DNA from: Oligoflexia bacterium
GTDB taxonomy: Bacteria; Bdellovibrionota; Bacteriovoracia; Bacteriovoracales; Bacteriovoracaceae
Reading direction: 5' to 3'
DNA: 34,101 nt
NCBI GenBank assembly: GCA_015231955.1
Contig: JADGAN010000049.1
Location: forward strand, 1-34,101
The notes beneath the pieces were generated by a model, which did not search any database, had not been told where the DNA came from, and worked only from the letters and a program-made list of their open reading frames with translations. Position 1 is the stretch's first letter; each line of letters begins with the position of its first letter. Positions 2,877 to 33,997 of the stretch are shown piece by piece. Made by a program: the position numbers and the translations under genes.

Positions 2877-3049
2877 TGCTCCATAGATAATTATGAATTA
2901 GAAATAGTTTAATGCTATCGTTGAAATAGAAGTGTAAGAAATTTTGTATTTTATTTATTTGGTTTTGGCCCAGATAGAAAATAGTTTACAAAGTTTGTTT
3001 GGGAGTATTATGAAGAGATGCAGTAATATTATTGGGGAGGTAAATGCAT

Positions 3050-4066
3050 ATGCAAGAAAGTATCAAAAGTAAGATTTCTGGAGTTGCTTCTTTTCTTCCT
3101 GATAGAGTTGTCACTAATTATGATCTAGAAAAAATCATGGATACCACCCACGATTGGATTGTTCAGAGGACTGGAATTGTTGAGCGGAGGTGGGTAGAGG
3201 GCACTAAGGTTACAACCTCTGATCTTGCCTATGAGGCTTCATTACGTGCTCTTGCTGATGCAAAAATCGATAAGAGTGCAGTGGATATGATTTTACTTGC
3301 TACTCTTAGTCCCGATCACGAGTTTCCCGGGACCGCTTGTTTTTTACAAGCAAAACTCGGCCTTAGTGAAATTCCTGCGATCGATATTAGACAACAGTGT
3401 AGTGGTTTTATCTACGCCTTATCTATTGGTGATCTTTTTATTAAAAGTGGCCGTTATAAAAATATTTTAGTTGTGGGATCTGAATTACAATCTCGCGGAT
3501 TGGATAAGAGTACAGAAGGGCGTGATGTGACGGTACTCTTTGGGGATGGCGCTGGTGCTGTGGTCTTATCGCGTGCAACGGAAGGAGATCACTCCAATAT
3601 TTTATCTACTCACATTCATGCTGATGGACAGTTTGCAAAGGAGCTTTGGGTTCCAGCACCGGGGCTGGCACTTGGGGATGATGCGCGAATCACAGAAGGC
3701 CACATGAAAGAGAAGCTTCACTACCCCCGGATGAATGGAAAGGCGGTGTATGTTCATGCAGTAAAGAGAATGATTGAAGGACTGCATGAGTGTTGTGATC
3801 ATAATCAGCTGAATATGAACGATGTAGATCTCTTCTTATTTCATCAGGCCAATTTAAGAATTGTAGAGGGGATTGTTGATCGTTTAAAGCTCCCTCCTGA
3901 AAAAGTATTTAATACGATTGAGCGATTTGCGAATACAACTGCTGCGACTCTTCCTATTGGAATGGATTATGCGATTAAGGAAAATCGCTTAAAGCGAGGA
4001 ATGCTGGTGGCCCTCTCAACTTTTGGGAGTGGCTTTACTTGGGGATCGGCACTGCTGCGCTATTAA
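3050..4066 (+). CDS. fabH: 3-oxoacyl-ACP synthase III (FabH-type)
   Basis: The product is a thiolase-fold condensing enzyme of usual FabH length (338 residues). Counting from the chosen Met, the catalytic triad is visible: Cys117 in QQCSG, His265 in FHQANLRI, and Asn295 in FANTTAAT. FabH condenses acyl-CoA with malonyl-ACP to start fatty acid synthesis. The ATG at 3050 lies 9 bases after GGGGAGG (3034-3040); the ATG at 3044 is only 3 bases away and less likely. The gene stands alone, not in a fab cluster, so a specialised KAS III (for example for unusual starter units or OleA-like chemistry) cannot be excluded. Its stop codon overlaps that of the convergent lipA-lipB fusion. Confidence 0.82.
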   Translation: MQESIKSKISGVASFLPDRVVTNYDLEKIMDTTHDWIVQRTGIVERRWVEGTKVTTSDLAYEASLRALADAKIDKSAVDMILLATLSPDHEFPGTACFLQAKLGLSEIPAIDIRQQCSGFIYALSIGDLFIKSGRYKNILVVGSELQSRGLDKSTEGRDVTVLFGDGAGAVVLSRATEGDHSNILSTHIHADGQFAKELWVPAPGLALGDDARITEGHMKEKLHYPRMNGKAVYVHAVKRMIEGLHECCDHNQLNMNDVDLFLFHQANLRIVEGIVDRLKLPPEKVFNTIERFANTTAATLPIGMDYAIKENRLKRGMLVALSTFGSGFTWGSALLRY

Positions 4067-5568
4067 CATTGTAATGAAGAGTATTTGTTGATAAGAATGT
4101 TTTGAAATTTTTCTTTGAAAATTTTGCGATTTACCTTGCTTCCTAAAAGTTCCTCCATAGAAATCATTGTTTCCGAAGTAAAACCACAGGGATTGATTCC
4201 TTGGAAGGCATTAGCATCATAATCGAGGTTGATGGCCATTCCATGGTGGGTGATCCAACGTCGAATGGCCACTCCAATGGAAGCTAATTTCCGCTGGCCC
4301 ACCCATACTCCAGTGTATTTCCCATCACCGGGTGTGGTGGAGCTGCTGCCAGTGGCGGTAATGTTATAATGCTCGCGTAGAAGGTAAACAAGGGCCTCTT
4401 CAAAGGTTCGAAGAAAAAGATGAATATCGCGTCCATAGTTTTGTAAATTAAGAATAGGGTAGATGATAAGTTGGGAGGGACCATGATAAGTGGCCTTACC
4501 TCCACGTCCGATATGGAAGATTTTTCCACTAAAGTTGCCAAGATCGTGTGCTTCACTATTTTTTCCAAGGGTGACTACAGGGGGATGGGAGCAAAAGAGG
4601 ATTGTTTGGCATTCACCTTTGGCCACAAGCTCGACCATTTCGAGCTGTTTCTTTAGGCCTTCTTCGTATTCGATGCACCCAAGGTCGAGTGATGTGAGCT
4701 TGATATTTTTTGGAGAAGATGATTTGGAAAAAAATTGGTGAGCACGATAGGAGCTACGGACGAGCGGTCCCGCGATCACTTCGAGAAAACCGTAAGAGTA
4801 GGCCAGCTCTTGCAAATCTTGAAAGTGTTCACTCTTAAGGTATTCAACAACTGCTGCATTTTTAGGAGTGGGGCGAAGGTATTGTCCAAGAGTGAGAAAG
4901 TCACAACCAACACTACGAAGATCATGAAAGGCGGCCTTTAAATCTTCACGATTTTCACCCACACCTAGCATTAAGGATGATTTGGTATAGATGGAGGGAT
5001 CGAGTGCTTTGATTGTTTGCAAAAGTTTTAAGGAGTAGTCATAGTTTGCTTTAGGATCACGAAGGGTAGTGGTGAGGCGCCTGACACATTCGAGATTATG
5101 GGCCCAAACAGTGGGCCTTGCTTTTGCGATAGGGGCAAGGGCATCCTTTTCCTGACCAAGAAAATCGGGTGTGAGAATTTCCACCAGCGTGTGTGGGGAG
5201 TATTTACGGATAGCGGTGATAGTATCAACATAGTGCTGGATGCCTCCATCAGGGAGGTCATCGCGAGTGACACTAGTAAGAACCGCATACTTTATTTTCA
5301 TCTCGGAGATGGCCTTGCCCACACGCTCGGGTTCGCTATTATCGAGCGCTTCCGGAGGGTTGCTTTGAACTGCGCAAAAATTGCAGTTGCGGCTGCAATT
5401 TTTTCCTAGCAACAGGAAGGTGGCAGTGAGATCATTCCAGCATTCGCTACGATTCGGGCAGTGGGCCTCTTGACAGACGGTTCCTAAGTTTAGGTTTTGT
5501 AAAATCTTTTCTGTCTCTTTAAAGTTTTGGGAGCAGGAGAGACGAATTTTGGGAAGTTGAGTTATCAT
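4063..5568 (-). CDS. lipA-lipB: Fused lipoyl synthase (LipA) - octanoyltransferase (LipB)
   Basis: This 501-residue protein joins the two enzymes of de novo lipoylation. Residues 1-285 are LipA, a radical-SAM enzyme inserting two sulfurs into octanoyl groups: auxiliary cluster cysteines C32, C37 and C43, radical-SAM cysteines C58, C62 and C65 (CSRNCNFC), and the RSSY motif at 271-274 that binds the auxiliary cluster. After a Ser/Lys-rich linker (281-290), residues about 292-501 are LipB, which transfers octanoate from ACP to lipoyl domains: GRGGKATYHGPSQ at 354-366, catalytic Lys427 in RKLAS and Cys461 in NPCGF. All key residues of both halves are present, so a working bifunctional enzyme is expected. 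The two are normally separate genes. The Shine-Dalgarno sequence is weak. Confidence 0.92.
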   Translation of the reverse strand: MITQLPKIRLSCSQNFKETEKILQNLNLGTVCQEAHCPNRSECWNDLTATFLLLGKNCSRNCNFCAVQSNPPEALDNSEPERVGKAISEMKIKYAVLTSVTRDDLPDGGIQHYVDTITAIRKYSPHTLVEILTPDFLGQEKDALAPIAKARPTVWAHNLECVRRLTTTLRDPKANYDYSLKLLQTIKALDPSIYTKSSLMLGVGENREDLKAAFHDLRSVGCDFLTLGQYLRPTPKNAAVVEYLKSEHFQDLQELAYSYGFLEVIAGPLVRSSYRAHQFFSKSSSPKNIKLTSLDLGCIEYEEGLKKQLEMVELVAKGECQTILFCSHPPVVTLGKNSEAHDLGNFSGKIFHIGRGGKATYHGPSQLIIYPILNLQNYGRDIHLFLRTFEEALVYLLREHYNITATGSSSTTPGDGKYTGVWVGQRKLASIGVAIRRWITHHGMAINLDYDANAFQGINPCGFTSETMISMEELLGSKVNRKIFKEKFQNILINKYSSLQC

Positions 5569-5673: not shown

Positions 5674-6402
5674 ATGAACAATAACAACAGTAGTAACAAT
5701 AATAATAGCAGCAATAATAACAGAGGAAGTAGTAAGGATATTCGGGAGAATAGGGATAGGGGGCGTAGTAGATTTCGAGGTCGCTCCTACAATAATCGTA
5801 ATCGTGATCGTGATCACGATCGGCGCGATAGTCGAGAAAACCGAGATAACCGAGATAACCGAGATAATCATGATAACCGTGAGCAAGGACAAGGCAAGTA
5901 TACTACTGGGATCAATAAAAATCGGATTTTTGATGAGATGTGGGATCGCTTGAGTAAACTTCATGAAAAATATTTGCAAATGCGGAAAAAATTTTTTGAG
6001 GGACAGTACCGTATGAAGGAGCGTGAACGAACTAAATCGGAGGGTGAGCTTGTAAATTCGCTGAGAACGATTCGTAAGTTAGAGGAGATGATCTCTAAAA
6101 ATCATCGTGGATTATATGAGAGAAAGGTAACAGCATACCGGCAAGATAATTTGTACTCTTTAGCAAAGCGGGATGAAGTGGCCTTGGGTCAAGGAGCAGC
6201 ACAGAATCAGAATCAGAATCAGACTCAGGCAAAAGCGGCTTTTGCTTTTGCGGAGGTTGGCCCTTCTTCTATTGGTATGGGGGGGCCTCACCAGACGTTA
6301 GAGCAAGGTAAGCGAACAAGTTTTAAAGGTGATACTGAGGAGAGTGTTGGGAGTATGCTCGACTATCAGGAATATCGTTCCAGTAAAAAGAAGAGCGAGT
6401 GA
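5674..6402 (+). CDS. Asn/Arg/Asp-rich protein with central coiled coil
   Basis: The 242-residue protein has three parts. Residues 1-75 are low complexity: Asn/Ser runs, then Arg-rich repeats including RDNRDNRDNHDNRE, reminiscent of RNA-binding disordered tails. Residues about 80-165 (RIFDEMWDRLSKLHEKYLQMRKKFFEGQYRMKERER...) are helical and probably a coiled coil. The C-terminal part is Gln/Asn- and Gly-rich. I do not recognise a family. The gene ends 2 bases before the chosen murJ start, so it is probably translated together with murJ; any role in envelope growth is inference. It is divergent from lipA-lipB. Confidence 0.6.
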   Translation: MNNNNSSNNNNSSNNNRGSSKDIRENRDRGRSRFRGRSYNNRNRDRDHDRRDSRENRDNRDNRDNHDNREQGQGKYTTGINKNRIFDEMWDRLSKLHEKYLQMRKKFFEGQYRMKERERTKSEGELVNSLRTIRKLEEMISKNHRGLYERKVTAYRQDNLYSLAKRDEVALGQGAAQNQNQNQTQAKAAFAFAEVGPSSIGMGGPHQTLEQGKRTSFKGDTEESVGSMLDYQEYRSSKKKSE

Positions 6403-10394: not shown

Positions 10395-12038
10395 TTAGGT
10401 TAGAGGGCGCATCTCTTTGCCATCGTAGATGAAGATGACCTCTTTGTTGTCGTACTTGGTTGCGAGGTTTATGGGGCGTCTCCAGATGGCAAAAATGTTT
10501 TTCATAGTATCGTGAGCGTAGTTGAGGTCGAGGTCAACACCGTAGTGGCGATGGCAGAGGAGAATTTCCCCTCGATTGTTGTAATTGCCATTTTCGATTT
10601 CGATCACCGGAGAGCCAAAGTTGGTGAGCGAAGTGAGTAGCTTTTGTTTGATGGCGAGGAAGTCGCGTGTATCAATTTCGTTGCGGCCAGTGCGCGGGTT
10701 GAATTTATAAGTAAAGATTTGTTGGCGATTACAAAATTCGGGAGTAAGAAACTCGTCGATAAAGGTGATATCGTTGTGAGAGCGACGAACATCAAAAATT
10801 TTTGCCTGTCCACCTTTAAGGCGTAAATCCCAGTGCTCCTTCTCGTAGAGATTTTCACACTCATTGTACTCTTTTCCAAAACGGCCGGTGTTCCAGCGAT
10901 ACTCGATATCGCGGAAGAGTTCTAGCCCCACTTTGTAGGGGTTGAGTTGCTTTCGGCTCATCTGCATGATGCCGGAGTGGTGATCGGCAAAGTCGGTGAT
11001 TTCGGAGGAGCAGGCGGCCTTTTCTGTCATGATTCGCGAGTGCCAGTAGCTGGCCCAACCCTCATTCATTATTTTGGTGAGGCGTTGAGGAAGAAAGTAG
11101 TAGGCCTCTTCACGCAGGATGCTGATGACATCAGATTGCCACTCGGTGAGTGGAGCGTGCTGGGCCAAAAATTGCATGATATCTTTGCGAGAGGAGGAGG
11201 GTGCTTTGTGAATCTCCCCGGTTTTTGCGAGTGCATGAACCGCCTCTGCTTGTGCTGTAGGATTGTTGGGATCGAGGGATGCTGCTTTCTCTTTCTCCTG
11301 ATCCTCTTTTACAGATTTTTTATCGTGGTGTTTATCTTTGTGCTTTTTGTGCTCTTTTTTGGAGTGTTCTCCTTTGTCTTTATCCTTGTCTTTATAGTAA
11401 GGGCTGCGCATAAAGGAGCGCAAGGCCTCACTGCGGTCATCGTCATCGGAGCGCAGGCTTTCGTCTTTCGCCTGTTTATCGATCTCTTTGCGTTCACGTT
11501 GCAGTTCTGGCGTTTCAAAGAGTGCACTGATATCGATGAGATTGTCGAGAGACAAGACTTTATCGATAAATTGTTCGACCACATCAGATCCATGCTGTTC
11601 CATGTAGCGACGGATTTTAGTGCGATGGTTGGCCATGGTGTCCATCATTTTACGATTGGTGGTGGAGAACCAATAGTTATTTTTGAAGAAATCGGCGTGT
11701 CCGTAAACGTGGGCCATCACCGTTTTTTGATCGACCATGTAGTTGGCATTTAGGAGGTAGGCGTAGCAAGGATCGGTGTTGATCACCATTTCATAAATTT
11801 TTTGAACACCGTAAGCGTAGCCTTTGGAGAATTGGTCATAATCCATTCCAAATTTCCAATGGGGGTAGCGAGTAGGAAAGCCTCCTTGTGCGGCCAAAAT
11901 GTTGACGGTCTCATAATCGCAAAGTTCAAAAATTACTTCGTAGAAAGAGAGGCCGTAATCGACAGCATATTGGCAAATTACTTTTTGTAGTTCCAGTAAC
12001 TCTCCACTGATTGGTCTGGTTTTTTCCATTACGCTCAT
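10395..12038 (-). CDS. spoVR: SpoVR family protein (YcgB-like) with charged insertion
   Basis: The N-terminal half carries the SpoVR signature: LQKVICQYAVDYGLSFYEVIFELCDYETVN, then FPTRYPHWKFGMDYDQFSKGYAYG and HVYGHADFFKNNYWFS. The C-terminal half contains INEGWASYWHSRIM and YRWNTGRFG, also family motifs. SpoVR (YcgB in E. coli) accompanies the PrkA kinase and DUF444 protein and is linked to stress and stationary-phase adaptation; the molecular activity is not established. Between about residues 195 and 265 there is a Lys/Asp/His-rich low-complexity insertion (repeats such as KDKDKDKG, KKEHKKHKDKHHDKK). At 547 residues it is somewhat longer than the usual roughly 500. It starts 3 bases after the DUF444 stop, with AAGGGAA as ribosome binding site. 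Confidence 0.9.
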   Translation of the reverse strand: MSVMEKTRPISGELLELQKVICQYAVDYGLSFYEVIFELCDYETVNILAAQGGFPTRYPHWKFGMDYDQFSKGYAYGVQKIYEMVINTDPCYAYLLNANYMVDQKTVMAHVYGHADFFKNNYWFSTTNRKMMDTMANHRTKIRRYMEQHGSDVVEQFIDKVLSLDNLIDISALFETPELQRERKEIDKQAKDESLRSDDDDRSEALRSFMRSPYYKDKDKDKGEHSKKEHKKHKDKHHDKKSVKEDQEKEKAASLDPNNPTAQAEAVHALAKTGEIHKAPSSSRKDIMQFLAQHAPLTEWQSDVISILREEAYYFLPQRLTKIMNEGWASYWHSRIMTEKAACSSEITDFADHHSGIMQMSRKQLNPYKVGLELFRDIEYRWNTGRFGKEYNECENLYEKEHWDLRLKGGQAKIFDVRRSHNDITFIDEFLTPEFCNRQQIFTYKFNPRTGRNEIDTRDFLAIKQKLLTSLTNFGSPVIEIENGNYNNRGEILLCHRHYGVDLDLNYAHDTMKNIFAIWRRPINLATKYDNKEVIFIYDGKEMRPLT

Positions 12039-12041
12039 TCG

Positions 12042-13151
12042 TTAGTTCCCTTTACTCAAGAATTCTTTGATGGAGTCGAGGATTCCATCTTTGTTTTTAA
12101 TCTTGCTTAAGATTACATTCTCACTGCGCTCACCATACTTTTCAAAGAGATCTTTATAGAATTGTCCTGATCCGTAGCGACTCTCAACTTGTCCGTAGCA
12201 GAACATGTTGGAGACTGGGAGAATATCTTTTTCGAGAAGCTCTAAACAAAGTTTGGTGTCGTCGAGGGACCAGTTGTCCCCGTCAGAGAAGTGAAAAGGA
12301 TAGATGTTCCATTCATTAACATCGTAATCTTTTTTTATGATGTCTTTACAGAGAAGGAAAGCAGAGGATATGAGTGTACCTCCGCTCTCCCTGGTCTTAA
12401 AGAAGGTGTCTTCATCAACCTCTTTGGCGGTAGCATCGTGAATGATGTAGCGAATTTCAATGTTTTTGTATTGATGCCTTAACCAGAGGTTGATCCAAAA
12501 GGATTCAGTGCGAACGATCTCTTTTTGTTCATCACCCATGGAGCCGGAGACGTCCATCATGTAGATGACTACCGCAGAGTTTTCATACTCAACTTTAGTG
12601 TGAGCAGCTTTGTAGCGGTAATCATCTTTGGTAGGAATGATGATGGGATTATTAGCATCGTAAGTACCAGTGATGATCTGTCGCTTGAGCGATTCACGAA
12701 AAGTGCGTTTAAAGTGGCGAAGCGATTCCGGTCCAATGATTCCAATCGTAGTGTAACGATCTTTTCGTGATTCGATCTGGTGTTTGCCTTTGGGCTCGAT
12801 ATTAGGAAGCTCGAGTTCTTCTCCTAAAATTTGCGCTAACTCCTCGAGCGTGAGATCTACCTCAATATCTTTGCTGCCTGGCGATTGTCCAGCTTTGCCT
12901 TCACCACTTTCGTTTGGTTGCCCATCAACGGGGTCTCCACCTTGACCTTGTCCTTGTCCCATGCCTCCTTGAGAGCGATCGCCGAAGCGAAAATGTGGTG
13001 TTTCAATGTGAGGTACGGGAATGGAAAAACGCTTTCCTCCCTTGGGAATAACCATATCACTACTGGAAACGTATTTACGAAGACCTTCGCGTATCTTTCC
13101 TTTAATGATTTTTCGAAATCGAGCGTGATCCCTTTTAATTGGATGGTCCAC
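12042..13151 (-). CDS. yeaH: DUF444 protein with vWA domain (YeaH-like)
   Basis: The 369-residue protein has the YeaH/YhbH layout. An N-terminal basic segment (HARFRKIIKGKIREGLRKYV) is followed by a Gly/Gln-rich linker, then a von Willebrand A domain with the MIDAS motif DVSGSMG near residue 200 and GGTLISSA around 260 (the second metal-site loop). It is the middle gene of the conserved prkA-yeaH-spoVR operon, and its product is thought to act with PrkA in stress adaptation. Translation starts at GTG, 8 bases after AAAGGGG. It lies 35 bases downstream of prkA. Confidence 0.9.
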   Translation of the reverse strand: MDHPIKRDHARFRKIIKGKIREGLRKYVSSSDMVIPKGGKRFSIPVPHIETPHFRFGDRSQGGMGQGQGQGGDPVDGQPNESGEGKAGQSPGSKDIEVDLTLEELAQILGEELELPNIEPKGKHQIESRKDRYTTIGIIGPESLRHFKRTFRESLKRQIITGTYDANNPIIIPTKDDYRYKAAHTKVEYENSAVVIYMMDVSGSMGDEQKEIVRTESFWINLWLRHQYKNIEIRYIIHDATAKEVDEDTFFKTRESGGTLISSAFLLCKDIIKKDYDVNEWNIYPFHFSDGDNWSLDDTKLCLELLEKDILPVSNMFCYGQVESRYGSGQFYKDLFEKYGERSENVILSKIKNKDGILDSIKEFLSKGN

Positions 13152-13186
13152 GAGAAACCCCTTTGATTAAGATAAGTAACTGAACT

Positions 13187-15241
13187 CTAGCTCTTTGCTG
13201 AGTCTCCTTTTGCAAAAATCGATGCTACAAAATTCAGCGCATCTGTCGCACAGATCTCACAATAACCTTGGTTTTTAATGAGACGTGCTTTAACCACATC
13301 AATCTTCTCTTGGGTCGATTTATCCACAACGTTGGAGATGATCGTTGTAAGTTTGATGGTATCCTTTTGATCTTCAAAGAGCTTAAGCTCGAGTGCACGG
13401 TGGAGGCGCTCATTCTTTTTATAATCGAAATTTTTACCTTCAATGGCGAGTGCTCCAATGTAGTTCATGATTTCTCGACGGAAATCATCTTTTCTTGATT
13501 CTGGAATATCGATTTTTTCTTCGATAGAACGCATGAATCTTTCATCGGCCTCTTCGAGACGGTTGGAGTATTTATTGCGAATTTTTTCTTTTTGCGTGTG
13601 TGCTTTGACGTTATCAATATAGTTGGAGCAAAGAGTTTGAATTGCTTGCTCGTCTACACTGATGGCCTTTTGCACATCATTCTTCACAATGTCCTCATAC
13701 TCTTGGCGTGCGATTGCCAACATTTCACGATAGTGATCGAGCATTTCAGGGGAGTTGACAAGGGCGTGGTGCTTTAACCCGGCCTCTAGTTCATTAAATA
13801 CCATAAAAGGATTTAAACATCCGACGTGTCCATGCTTTACCAGGGAGTTAGAGATTTTATCTTGAATATAACGAGGAGAGATTCCCTCCATCCCTTCGCG
13901 CATAGCTTCTTTGCGCAACTCTTTCACATTCTCTTCGTTGTAGCCGGGTAGTGTTTTCCCGTTGTAGAGTTTCATTTTTTGCAAGCGAGTGAGATCCGAT
14001 TTTTTTGGTTCTTCAATACGCGTAAGCACCGCCCAAGTTGCGGCCATCTCGATGGTATGAGGAGCGATGTGGATACTGCCAATGGTTTTTTGATTGAAAT
14101 CACGCTCATAAATGCGAATCTCTTTATCGAGGCGAGTGATGTAAGGCACATCGATTTTTACCGTACGATCGCGGAGTGCTTCCATGAATTCGTTGTTTTG
14201 CAATTTCTTGTACTCAGGCTCATTGGTGTGTCCCAGAATAATCAGGTCGATATTGGTTTGAGAAAATTTCTTGGGCTTAATACACTGTTCTTGAGAGGCG
14301 CCAAGCAGGTCGTAAAGGAAGGCCACATCGAGTTTTAACATCTCAATAAATTCTACCATTCCGCGGTTGGCGATATTGAATTCACCATCGAAGTTAAAGG
14401 CGCGAGGATCGGAATCGGAGCCGTAACGGGCGATATTGCGATAGTTGATGTCACCGGTGAGCTCTGTGGAGTCTTGGTTCTTCTCATCTTTTGGCTGGAA
14501 AGTTCCAATACCGAGACGATCTTTTTCCGAAAGGATCAGGCGTTTTACCTTAATATGCTTCATCACTTGGGTCCAGTCGCCATTATACTTGAGCAGGTAT
14601 TGCTTTAAAATATAGCGACATGCTGGATTGACTTCACCGCGGATGGTGACCTTGCGATCTTTTTGACTGCGATTCATGTCTTGCAAGAATTTTTCACGAA
14701 CTTCAAAGGGGAGGAGTTTTAGAGGCTCTTCGTGCATAGGAGAGGCAAAAACTTTATGGCCACCGAGAATTTCTGATTCACTCTCATCCACCCATTCGTA
14801 AGTATAAAGTGCACCATCGTCGGTTTTTGAGTAGTATTCCAATCCTTTCTTTAATAAACGAGCAATTGAGGATTTTGCTGATCCGACAGGTCCATGTAGG
14901 AGGAGAATTCTTTTTTCTGTGCCGTAACCTGCGGCCGCAGATTTAAAGAAGTTCACTAATTTCATAAGGTGAACATCGATACCAAAGACGGCATCTTTGC
15001 CATTATCAAAAGGATCATCAAAGAAATTATAACGAGTGATCTCTTTTTTGTACTCCACATATTTGGTGGTGCCAAAGCTGATGATCATATCATAAATGCG
15101 CTGAAAAGCGTTTCTAGTGACTCCTGGTCTTTCAGAAACAACGTCAAGGTAATCTTGATAGGTTCCTACCCAGTTGAGATGAGCAAAATCAGCGACTTTA
15201 TAATTGTCCAGCATGAACTTTTTAATATCTATTTTTGACAT
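13187..15241 (-). CDS. prkA: PrkA serine protein kinase / AAA+ protein (YeaG-like)
   Basis: The 684-residue protein matches PrkA in length and layout: an AAA+ module with Walker [10 protein letters not shown] around residues 116-124, followed by long helical regions and the C-terminal kinase-like domain. PrkA/YeaG is described as a Ser/Thr kinase with AAA homology that is induced in stationary phase or starvation; a protease activity has also been suggested for some homologues. It is the first gene of the operon with yeaH and spoVR. It has an excellent ribosome binding site (GGAGGAGG), and a 26-base perfect palindrome starts 24 bases upstream of the ATG. Confidence 0.92.
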
Positions 15242-27710: not shown

Positions 27711-28397
27711 AAGCTCTTCATTGATTTTCTCCTGAATATTGCTTTAAGTGGTGTTGCTGGCAACATAAGAACAACTGTAAACCATCCCTTCTTTTCTCCT
27801 ACCAAGCAGACTTGGGTAGACGCCAAAGACCTGCAAGTTGGCGATCAATTGCTGACAATAGATAAGAAAATTGTCACGGTTTCAAAGATTGAAGATGAGT
27901 ATGGGGAGTTTCCTGTATACAATCTTCATGTAGATAAGAATAATACCTACTATGTTTCTTTGGATGGGGTGCTTGTTCATAACTGTGGAGGTAGCGCTAG
28001 AACAGATGCGGTTGAAACAGTAGCAAGGCATGCAGATGATATTGTAAAAATTGGAAGGGACAGTGGTTTTTCAAATGTGATATATCCTAGAGGACAGGGT
28101 GCTTCGACACTTCCAGCACCGTCTGGGTATACTAAAGTTAGTCGTTGGATAAATGAATCAGAGTCAAAAATGTGGGTTGAAGGTGGGGGAACTCATATCC
28201 CTACAGATGTTGGAGCTGGCGGAAGAGTATATGTGACTTCACCAGGGGCACCAAAACCTGGAGGAACAGGATCAATTAGAGTTGATTTTTATGTCCCAGA
28301 GGGAATGCTTCAAAAAGCTGGTAATGAACAATGGTTTCAAATTATGCAACCTCAAGCCAACACACCAATATACAATGTAGAAATATTTAAACCATAG
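27711..28397 (+). CDS. Orphan polymorphic-toxin tip: partial Hint domain plus C-terminal toxin domain
   Basis: The open frame runs from a stop at 27708 to 28397 without a good start codon (TTG 27849 is the first reported). It begins in the middle of a Hint (intein-like) domain: VNHPFFSPTKQTWVDAKDLQVGDQLL (27777-27854), then YNLHVDKNNTYYVSLDGVLVHNC, where the HN/C junction (27981-27986) is the typical Hint C-terminus. The N-terminal half of the Hint, with its nucleophile, is absent. The following 137 residues are a toxin domain (VSRWINESESKMW, GRVYVTSPGAPKPGG, RVDFYVPEGML, NTPIYNVEI). It reminds me of TreTu-type ADP-ribosyltransferase tips, which is a weak recollection. A candidate immunity gene follows after 7 bases. 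Confidence 0.65.
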   Translation, partial: KLFIDFLLNIALSGVAGNIRTTVNHPFFSPTKQTWVDAKDLQVGDQLLTIDKKIVTVSKIEDEYGEFPVYNLHVDKNNTYYVSLDGVLVHNCGGSARTDAVETVARHADDIVKIGRDSGFSNVIYPRGQGASTLPAPSGYTKVSRWINESESKMWVEGGGTHIPTDVGAGGRVYVTSPGAPKPGGTGSIRVDFYVPEGMLQKAGNEQWFQIMQPQANTPIYNVEIFKP

Positions 28398-29463: not shown

Positions 29464-29628
29464 ATGCGAATGAAATTGAACGCTAAAAATAAAAAACATA
29501 TTCACAGAAATCATCATCAATTAATTGCTCCGAAGGCCGCACCTCTTGAAGTTGAATGCCAATATCGCAATGATCTTCAACGAACAATTATCTTTATTGA
29601 TAAGGGGAGACAATCCTCAAGAGCATGA
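29464..29628 (+). CDS. Probable N-terminal part of the reverse transcriptase (other frame)
   Basis: This frame (ATG at 29464; open from a TTG at 29431) encodes a basic segment ending in EVECQYRNDLQRTIIFIDKGRQSSRA. The part QRTIIFIDKG resembles the first finger strands of reverse transcriptases. The RT frame downstream has no good start codon and is shifted by one base. Skipping one base at GGGG (29604-29607) gives TIIFIDKGDNPQEHEERKRL, which joins smoothly. I therefore read it as the 5' part of the same gene, broken by a one-base shift, sequencing error or programmed frameshift. Confidence 0.45.
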   Translation: MRMKLNAKNKKHIHRNHHQLIAPKAAPLEVECQYRNDLQRTIIFIDKGRQSSRA

Positions 29629-30433
29629 GGAACGGAAAAGATTGCATCAATACTTGGCCGAGCGTATTGGGAAGTATATCCATCCAAATATTTATGGAAG
29701 TCTTGCTGGTCGGAGTGCTACCGATTGCATCCTTAACGTTATCATCGGAAAAGTCATCAACAAGAAAACCATTTTGAAATTGGATGTAGCGAAGGCATTT
29801 CTCAATGTTGATGTCTTTCGCCTGGCCAGTTTATTGAAGCGATTTTTTGCAAAGGCCGCGATTCCCGAAGAAGAACAGAATGCTCTTATCAATCAAATCT
29901 TTCGCCATTTTGAAGTCAAGAATGGTAAGGGAGTTAGGTTTAGAGGGTTAGCTCAAGGAGATATTCTCTCAAGTCTTTTGTTTTCGATCTTCATGACTCC
30001 TGTCTTTAATCGCTTTGGAAGGCGATATAAGGTCTTTGGGTATGTGGATGACAACCACATCATCCTTGATAAGAAGGAGGATGCCATTGCGGCAGAGGAG
30101 CATTTCATTGAATGTCTTTGCCGCAATGGTTACTATCGAGAGGATGAGGTTGGCAACATTTTAGGAAATCGCCAACTTTTCTTAAATGATGATAAAAGAG
30201 GACTGTCGGCACCCGATGAGGACACTTCTGTTCTCGGATTAATCATCACCAAAGATTTTCAATTACTACCAAGGCCTGACAGATCAATCAGCACCTTCCT
30301 TGATCGTGCGGATAAGATTTCAAAAAAATTGTTCAAAATGAAAATGAATGATCCAAGTGTTGGTTACTACAAGTTGCTGTCAAATCTAGAAGCAATTTCT
30401 TATAGGAGAGGAGTCGCGGCCTCTAATGGATAA
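29525..30433 (+). CDS. Reverse transcriptase, unassigned bacterial lineage (YVDD)
   Basis: The 302-residue frame carries a complete RT core: motif 2-like IYGSLAGRSATDCILNVI; motif A KLDVAKAFLNVDVF (first catalytic Asp); motif B RGLAQGDILSSLLFSIFMTPV; motif C FGYVDDNHIIL (two catalytic Asp); motif D/E LFLNDDKRGLSAPDEDTSVLGLII. Motif B has GDILSS in place of the usual G/S-x-L-SP. There is no maturase or HNH endonuclease domain as in group II introns, no retron NAxxH/VTG pair that I can see, and the SQ form of motif B seen in DGRs is absent. The start is unsettled: TTG 29525 follows a stop, and the N-terminus probably lies in the frame starting at 29464. The last 8 bases overlap the next gene (ATGGATAA). 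Confidence 0.85.
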   Translation: MLRRPHLLKLNANIAMIFNEQLSLLIRGDNPQEHEERKRLHQYLAERIGKYIHPNIYGSLAGRSATDCILNVIIGKVINKKTILKLDVAKAFLNVDVFRLASLLKRFFAKAAIPEEEQNALINQIFRHFEVKNGKGVRFRGLAQGDILSSLLFSIFMTPVFNRFGRRYKVFGYVDDNHIILDKKEDAIAAEEHFIECLCRNGYYREDEVGNILGNRQLFLNDDKRGLSAPDEDTSVLGLIITKDFQLLPRPDRSISTFLDRADKISKKLFKMKMNDPSVGYYKLLSNLEAISYRRGVAASNG

Positions 30434-33098: not shown

Positions 33099-33728
33099 TT
33101 ACGCAGCGTCCTTGCTACTATCCTTCCCGTTAAAATAAGATTCTTTTAGCTCCCTATGTACAGTCGCGGCCGAACATCCGGCCAACTCCGCTATCTTTCT
33201 ATACGAGAGGCCCTGAGCGGCCAAATTTTGGATTAGAAGAGATTGCCTTGATCTAGGCCGTCCTAACTCTGCTCCCTTTGCCTTAGCGTTTATAAGGCCG
33301 TTTTTAACCCGTTCTGCAATGAGATCACGCTCAAGGGTAGCAATGGCCGCGATGATAACAAATACCGCTTTGCCGATGGCAGAATTGGTTTCGATCTTTG
33401 CACTCAAACTTATAAAGGCCACACCACTTGCTTGAAACTCGGTCAGCGCGGCCAAGAGATGTTGAGTGCTTCGGGCGAAGCGAGAGAAGCTATAAACGAT
33501 CACGGCCTCAACTGTGTTGCCCCTCACATCTTCCATTAGCTTATCCAGTTCAGGCCGCAATCCCTTAGTTCCCGATATGCCAGCGTCCTCGTAGCAACGA
33601 TAATTTAAGATGCCGTTATCATCACAATATTTGATTAAGGCCCGTCGTTGGGATTCCAGACCACTGTCTTGTTTATCGGTGCTTGTCCGACAGTAGAGTG
33701 CTATGTGCTTATCTGGTTTGTTGCTCAT
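33099..33728 (-). CDS. Serine recombinase (resolvase/invertase family)
   Basis: The 209-residue protein has the small-resolvase layout: catalytic Ser16 in ALYCRTSTDKQDSGLESQ, the arginine-bearing YSFSRFARS region, the long helix ERDLIAERVKNGL, the linker KGAELGRPRS, and a C-terminal helix-turn-helix GLSYRKIAELAGCSAATVHREL. It catalyses site-specific resolution or inversion. The start is the ATG with GAGGGGG 5-6 bases upstream (an earlier ATG at 33782 lacks one). It appears intact. A relic of the same C-terminus lies 0.8 kb away at 32272-32361, and it is next to a broken tyrosine integrase. Confidence 0.9.
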   Translation of the reverse strand: MSNKPDKHIALYCRTSTDKQDSGLESQRRALIKYCDDNGILNYRCYEDAGISGTKGLRPELDKLMEDVRGNTVEAVIVYSFSRFARSTQHLLAALTEFQASGVAFISLSAKIETNSAIGKAVFVIIAAIATLERDLIAERVKNGLINAKAKGAELGRPRSRQSLLIQNLAAQGLSYRKIAELAGCSAATVHRELKESYFNGKDSSKDAA

Positions 33729-33753
33729 ATATCCCCCTCTTGAAATAACTAAA

Positions 33754-33997
33754 TTAAAAATCAAATGGTGATGGATCATCAATGCTGATTGATTTCAAGT
33801 GTCCGTACAAGTCGATGGTGAGCTGTACTGATCGGTGCCCTAAAATGCTTTGGATTTGGTACATCTTCTTGCCCTTCAACAAAGCATTGTAGCAGAACGA
33901 GTGCCGCAGATCGTGCGTACGCCACTTCTTTTGGTGTATTTATTCAGCGTGATTTGAGAAAAAAATGAGCTAAGGCCTTAAAATAGTTCTGGGCCTC
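33754..33997 (-). pseudogene. Tyrosine recombinase (phage-type integrase), C-terminal remnant
   Basis: The minus strand encodes KKWRTHDLRHSFCYNALLKG and then ILGHRSVQLTIDLYGH before a stop at 33754-33756. This includes the box II H-x-L-R-H and G-H-R signatures and the catalytic Tyr of DLYGH. Upstream, the sense continues in other frames (SQITLNKYTK, then EAQNYFKALAHFF), with shifts at AAAA and at a run of seven T. The N-terminal half is missing. This is a dead integrase, probably of the original island, truncated on the right. Confidence 0.7.

Follow-up and report, generated by a model that had tools for sequence, protein, structure and literature searches.

The octanoyltransferase LipB and the lipoyl synthase LipA of E. 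coli are encoded by separate genes in the order lipB-ybeF-lipA, with ybeF between them. The roles of the motifs of both enzymes are taken here from excerpts of PMC9307952 and PMC12246082. According to the latter, the CX4CX5C motif and the serine of RSSY belong to the auxiliary cluster of LipA and CX3CX2C to the radical-SAM cluster, and in human LIAS the RSSY motif bears the auxiliary-cluster ligand. An acyl-attaching enzyme joined to LipA is also described in NCBIfam, as the bifunctional lipoate--protein ligase/lipoyl synthase NF053790 (LplA-LipA), whose attaching domain is N-terminal and of the LplA type. A literature search on fusion, both enzymes, their interactions and Bdellovibrio yielded no report of a LipA-LipB fusion in titles or abstract starts, and excerpts of PMC10332631 and PMC3917532 describe none. 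As far as these searches show, the reactions, the folds and the gene pair are known, and one chain with LipA ahead of LipB has not been described.

Such a chain is encoded on the minus strand at positions 4063..5568 of the window, the 34,101 nt stretch of DNA analysed here. The lipA-lipB fusion gene has an ATG start and 501 codons without a single internal stop. The LipA half (residues 7-284; 4717..5550, minus strand, an interval also returned by the match in its own genome) reached 314.9 bits against TIGR00510, with a curated cut-off of 310.25. The LipB half (residues 290-501; 4066..4701, minus strand) reached 118.7 bits against TIGR00214 over residues 322-485 (curated cut-off 83.55), and with longer LipB models of NCBIfam the match begins at residue 287. 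Pfam assigned a Radical_SAM domain and a lipoyl ligase/transferase catalytic domain. The sequence-only reading of a LipA and a LipB in one protein was thus borne out. Against NF053790 the fusion scored 337 bits, below the cut-off of 800, and aligned only to profile positions 338-605, the LipA part; it differs from that family in having the order LipA-LipB. The gene at 4063-5568 appears to be a real gene fusion of a fairly ordinary kind, known from one genome so far.

The motifs are those of E. coli LipA and LipB, and the two predicted reactions are the same. All six cluster cysteines and the RSSY motif are present in the LipA half (CX4CX5C at residues 32-43, CX3CX2C at 58-65, RSSY at 271-274), and the LipB half carries RGG at 355-357, Lys427 and Cys461. 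The latter two are invariant between the fusion and LipB of seven relatives (alignment A2) and line up with the Lys/Cys pair in the solved LipB chains 2qht and 1w66. The motif check and these alignments agree with the earlier statement that the catalytic residues of both enzymes are intact, including the residue numbers given for them. Alignments A1 and A3 misplaced C-terminal parts of LipA and were left out of the conservation claims; A4 was used in place of A3.

The junction follows directly after RSSY (residues 275-289; 4702..4746, minus strand) and contains a T7 and an A6 run. The linker of 10 residues proposed earlier is roughly right: residue 274 is the last of RSSY and residue 291 the first of the earliest predicted LipB strand, and the exact length is a matter of definition. 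An AlphaFold2 model, calculated from a 14-row alignment in which four rows covered LipA, contains both folds. Its best PDB matches were human LIAS for the first half and LipB (2qhs and 1w66) for the second. With a pTM of 0.50 and a pLDDT <50 for residues 270-287, the model leaves undefined how the two sites are arranged.

The host genome (G000) belongs to Bdellovibrionota and is 5.61 Mb in size, in 114 contigs and 95% complete. The fusion is its sole LipA and also its sole LipB-type protein. Besides the fusion, two further proteins with PF21948 were found, both encoded elsewhere in the genome and best matching the lipoate-protein ligase TIGR00545, one above and one below the cut-off. The fusion is therefore the genome's own lipoate pathway and not a spare copy. 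A GcvH and a SucB-type E2, both above cut-off, are candidate substrates, as are two more E2-type proteins that score under the equivalog cut-offs. In addition, a lipoyl-type domain resembling E2 N-terminal domains lies in a short frame of 84 aa (L139; G000:C27:59059-59277), which may be a carrier on its own or the remnant of a broken E2.

Next to the fusion, a convergent beta-ketoacyl-ACP synthase III gene (fabH-type; 3044..4066, plus strand) overlaps its end by 4 bases (4063-4066). On the other side, a divergent gene (5674..6402, plus strand) encodes an Asn/Arg-rich protein without a Pfam match. A scan for promoters and terminators yielded no signal above chance level of relevance to the fusion question. 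Farther away in the window, genes for SpoVR, DUF444 and PrkA follow each other on the minus strand (10395-15241). A small ORF on the plus strand (27849-28397), whose start resembles by eye the end of a Hint-type module, matched TreTu_C weakly (25.4 bits, below the cut-off of 27); downstream of it lie an RVT_1 reverse transcriptase (29525-30433) and then a resolvase (33099-33782).

To place the fusion among its relatives, we read 24 loci of the family including that of the host. At one of them (G305) lipB is missing from the vicinity, and 22 have lipA and lipB as adjacent, unfused genes, arranged in the order seen in the fusion. In 20 of these 22, a listed lipB start lies at -11 to +15 bases from the lipA stop, and eight of the 20 show an ATGA or GTGA overlap. 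The two exceptions by their first listed lipB starts are G178, at +38, and G143, far upstream. For 19 of the 22 relatives the LipA tail past RSSY comprises 19-33 residues, and for G178 it comprises 12; G024 and G306, the two closest relatives, have it cut to 7 and 9 residues. These two also have the sequence RSSYxAH in common with the fusion. As E. coli LipA extends merely 12 residues past RSSY, a short tail need not harm the enzyme.

Phylogenetic trees grouped both halves of the fusion with G024 and G306, with support values of 94/96 for LipB and of 92/69 for LipA, the LipA tree having long branches and a warning issued by the tree program. Within this clade the LipA branches are far longer than those of LipB (4.4-4.7 versus 0.3-0.85). 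The divergent Asn/Arg-rich neighbor lies upstream in the window and, judged by eye, recurs in a similar form beside lipA-lipB in the two closest relatives (L065 and L058). Because of the trees of both halves and this similar neighbor, the fused gene corresponds in position to the lipA-lipB pair of G024 and G306. The pair of G024 matches it in order and strand, has a similar neighbor, and differs in that a stop and an ATG separate its two genes. Given the coupled pairs in the relatives and the cut lipA tails in the two closest ones, the fusion most likely arose when a coupled lipA-lipB pair lost the lipA stop and the lipB start. In such a course, the C-terminal tail of lipA would have been shortened first, and a change in the junction would then have removed the stop and the start to give one frame.

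The sequence-only reading had not regarded the order LipA-LipB as common and had proposed a database search for its spread, and the order does appear rare. Stop-free LipA-LipB matches occurred in one of 58 genomes (52 with a match) and, among the matches listed, in one of 129 genomes of the family (110 with a match) and one of 368 genomes of the phylum (329 with a match). In each case the one was the genome of the window, which is counted in all three overlapping sets. In the family and phylum lists, any fusion with a similar score would appear among the first matches, while a more diverged one matching in two pieces could be missed. A second species of the same genus was not among the genomes returned by the searches. 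Among the best 80 of 516 LipB relatives in a contig database, none was in frame with LipA. The fusion appears rare within Bdellovibrionota; as other phyla were covered only through these 80 loci and a plasmid search, we make no such claim for all bacteria.

Several candidates were rejected in the course of these searches. In four genomes (G016, G203, G130 and G295) the match spans both halves; a single TAA lies between the genes, which are separate and share a frame by chance. A search with the LipA model gave a match in 280 of 290 phylum genomes. Among the matches listed, long LipA frames (G152, G180 and six others including G016) had no adjoining LipB motif, except for G016. A frame of 1035 aa around LipB at L110 is a chance frame in a GC-rich genome, running over an ORF that by eye is dihydrolipoyl-dehydrogenase-like and has its own ATG. 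The plasmid search matched 214 records, seven of which had one place covering >80% of the query; two of the seven are annotated under the match, both with separate lipA and lipB, and five have no annotation there. Separately, in another genome of Bdellovibrionota (L050; G180:C163:300-3400, minus strand), LipA lies in a frame of 539 aa that by eye resembles an RsmD-type RNA methyltransferase in its first part and may be an RsmD-LipA fusion.

A base lost or gained in the junction during sequencing or assembly could have joined two genes that are truly separate. The T7 and A6 runs lie there, the relatives that were read carry two genes, and lengthening either run would give a LipA of 318 aa and, in principle, an overlapping LipB with a GTG start. 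However, such a LipA would have a tail of 44 residues plus the overlap, unlike any relative tabled, and shortening T7 or A6 would give a LipA of 304 aa and leave LipB without a start. Among 840 single-base edits across residues 271-305, 12 gave a LipA stop within 45 residues past RSSY together with any ATG, GTG or TTG start for LipB; none of the 12 alters the length of a homopolymer and none yields an ATG. From RSSY to Met311 the LipB frame contains no ATG, GTG or TTG, and Met311 lies beyond the first predicted LipB strand (291-298). Judged by these sequence features, an error is unlikely to be behind the fusion. Even less probable in our view is that the protein is made with one half impaired, most likely LipA, and that scavenging by the two LplA-type ligases carries the load. 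Those ligases are encoded in the genome, and the narrow margin of the LipA half above the TIGR00510 cut-off (4.7 bits) together with the very long LipA branches to G000 and to G024 plus G306 makes a weakened LipA function possible. Against this stand the retained six cysteines and RSSY and the frame intact across 501 codons.

We therefore regard the protein, with good confidence, as a real, lineage-restricted bifunctional enzyme derived from a coupled lipA-lipB pair. Its LipB half would take octanoyl from the acyl carrier protein onto Cys461, with Lys427 as partner, and transfer this group to a lipoyl-domain lysine (GcvH, E2). The LipA half would then insert two sulfurs into the octanoyl group by radical-SAM chemistry. 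A further possibility, raised already in the sequence-only reading, which would add to this explanation rather than replace it, is true channelling, with the LipB site handing the octanoylated lipoyl domain straight to the LipA site. LipB and LipA perform consecutive steps on one carrier protein, and LipB joins where the C-terminal helix of LipA follows RSSY, which in human LIAS is the auxiliary-cluster ligand motif (excerpts of PMC12246082). LipB, replacing most of the LipA tail, might thus be tethered within about 16 residues of the cluster ligand in RSSY, so that the carrier domain might be finished without release. We hold both this geometry and the direct transfer to be doubtful, as the domain arrangement is undefined in the model and tethering alone may suffice.

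Lipoyl domains are mobile carriers, and tethering together with an equal supply of both activities may therefore be the whole benefit. We infer that the gene yields one polypeptide in which both halves work, and that its chief benefit is tethering and supply at a 1:1 ratio, not true channelling. A natural single-chain enzyme combining LipB and LipA would be a handy tool to test the coupling of the last two steps of lipoate assembly, and would also be handy for producing lipoylated proteins. Together with the neighboring genes and the shortened tails in the relatives, it also illustrates how a coupled gene pair may become a fusion, and the step from one to the other is easily understood.
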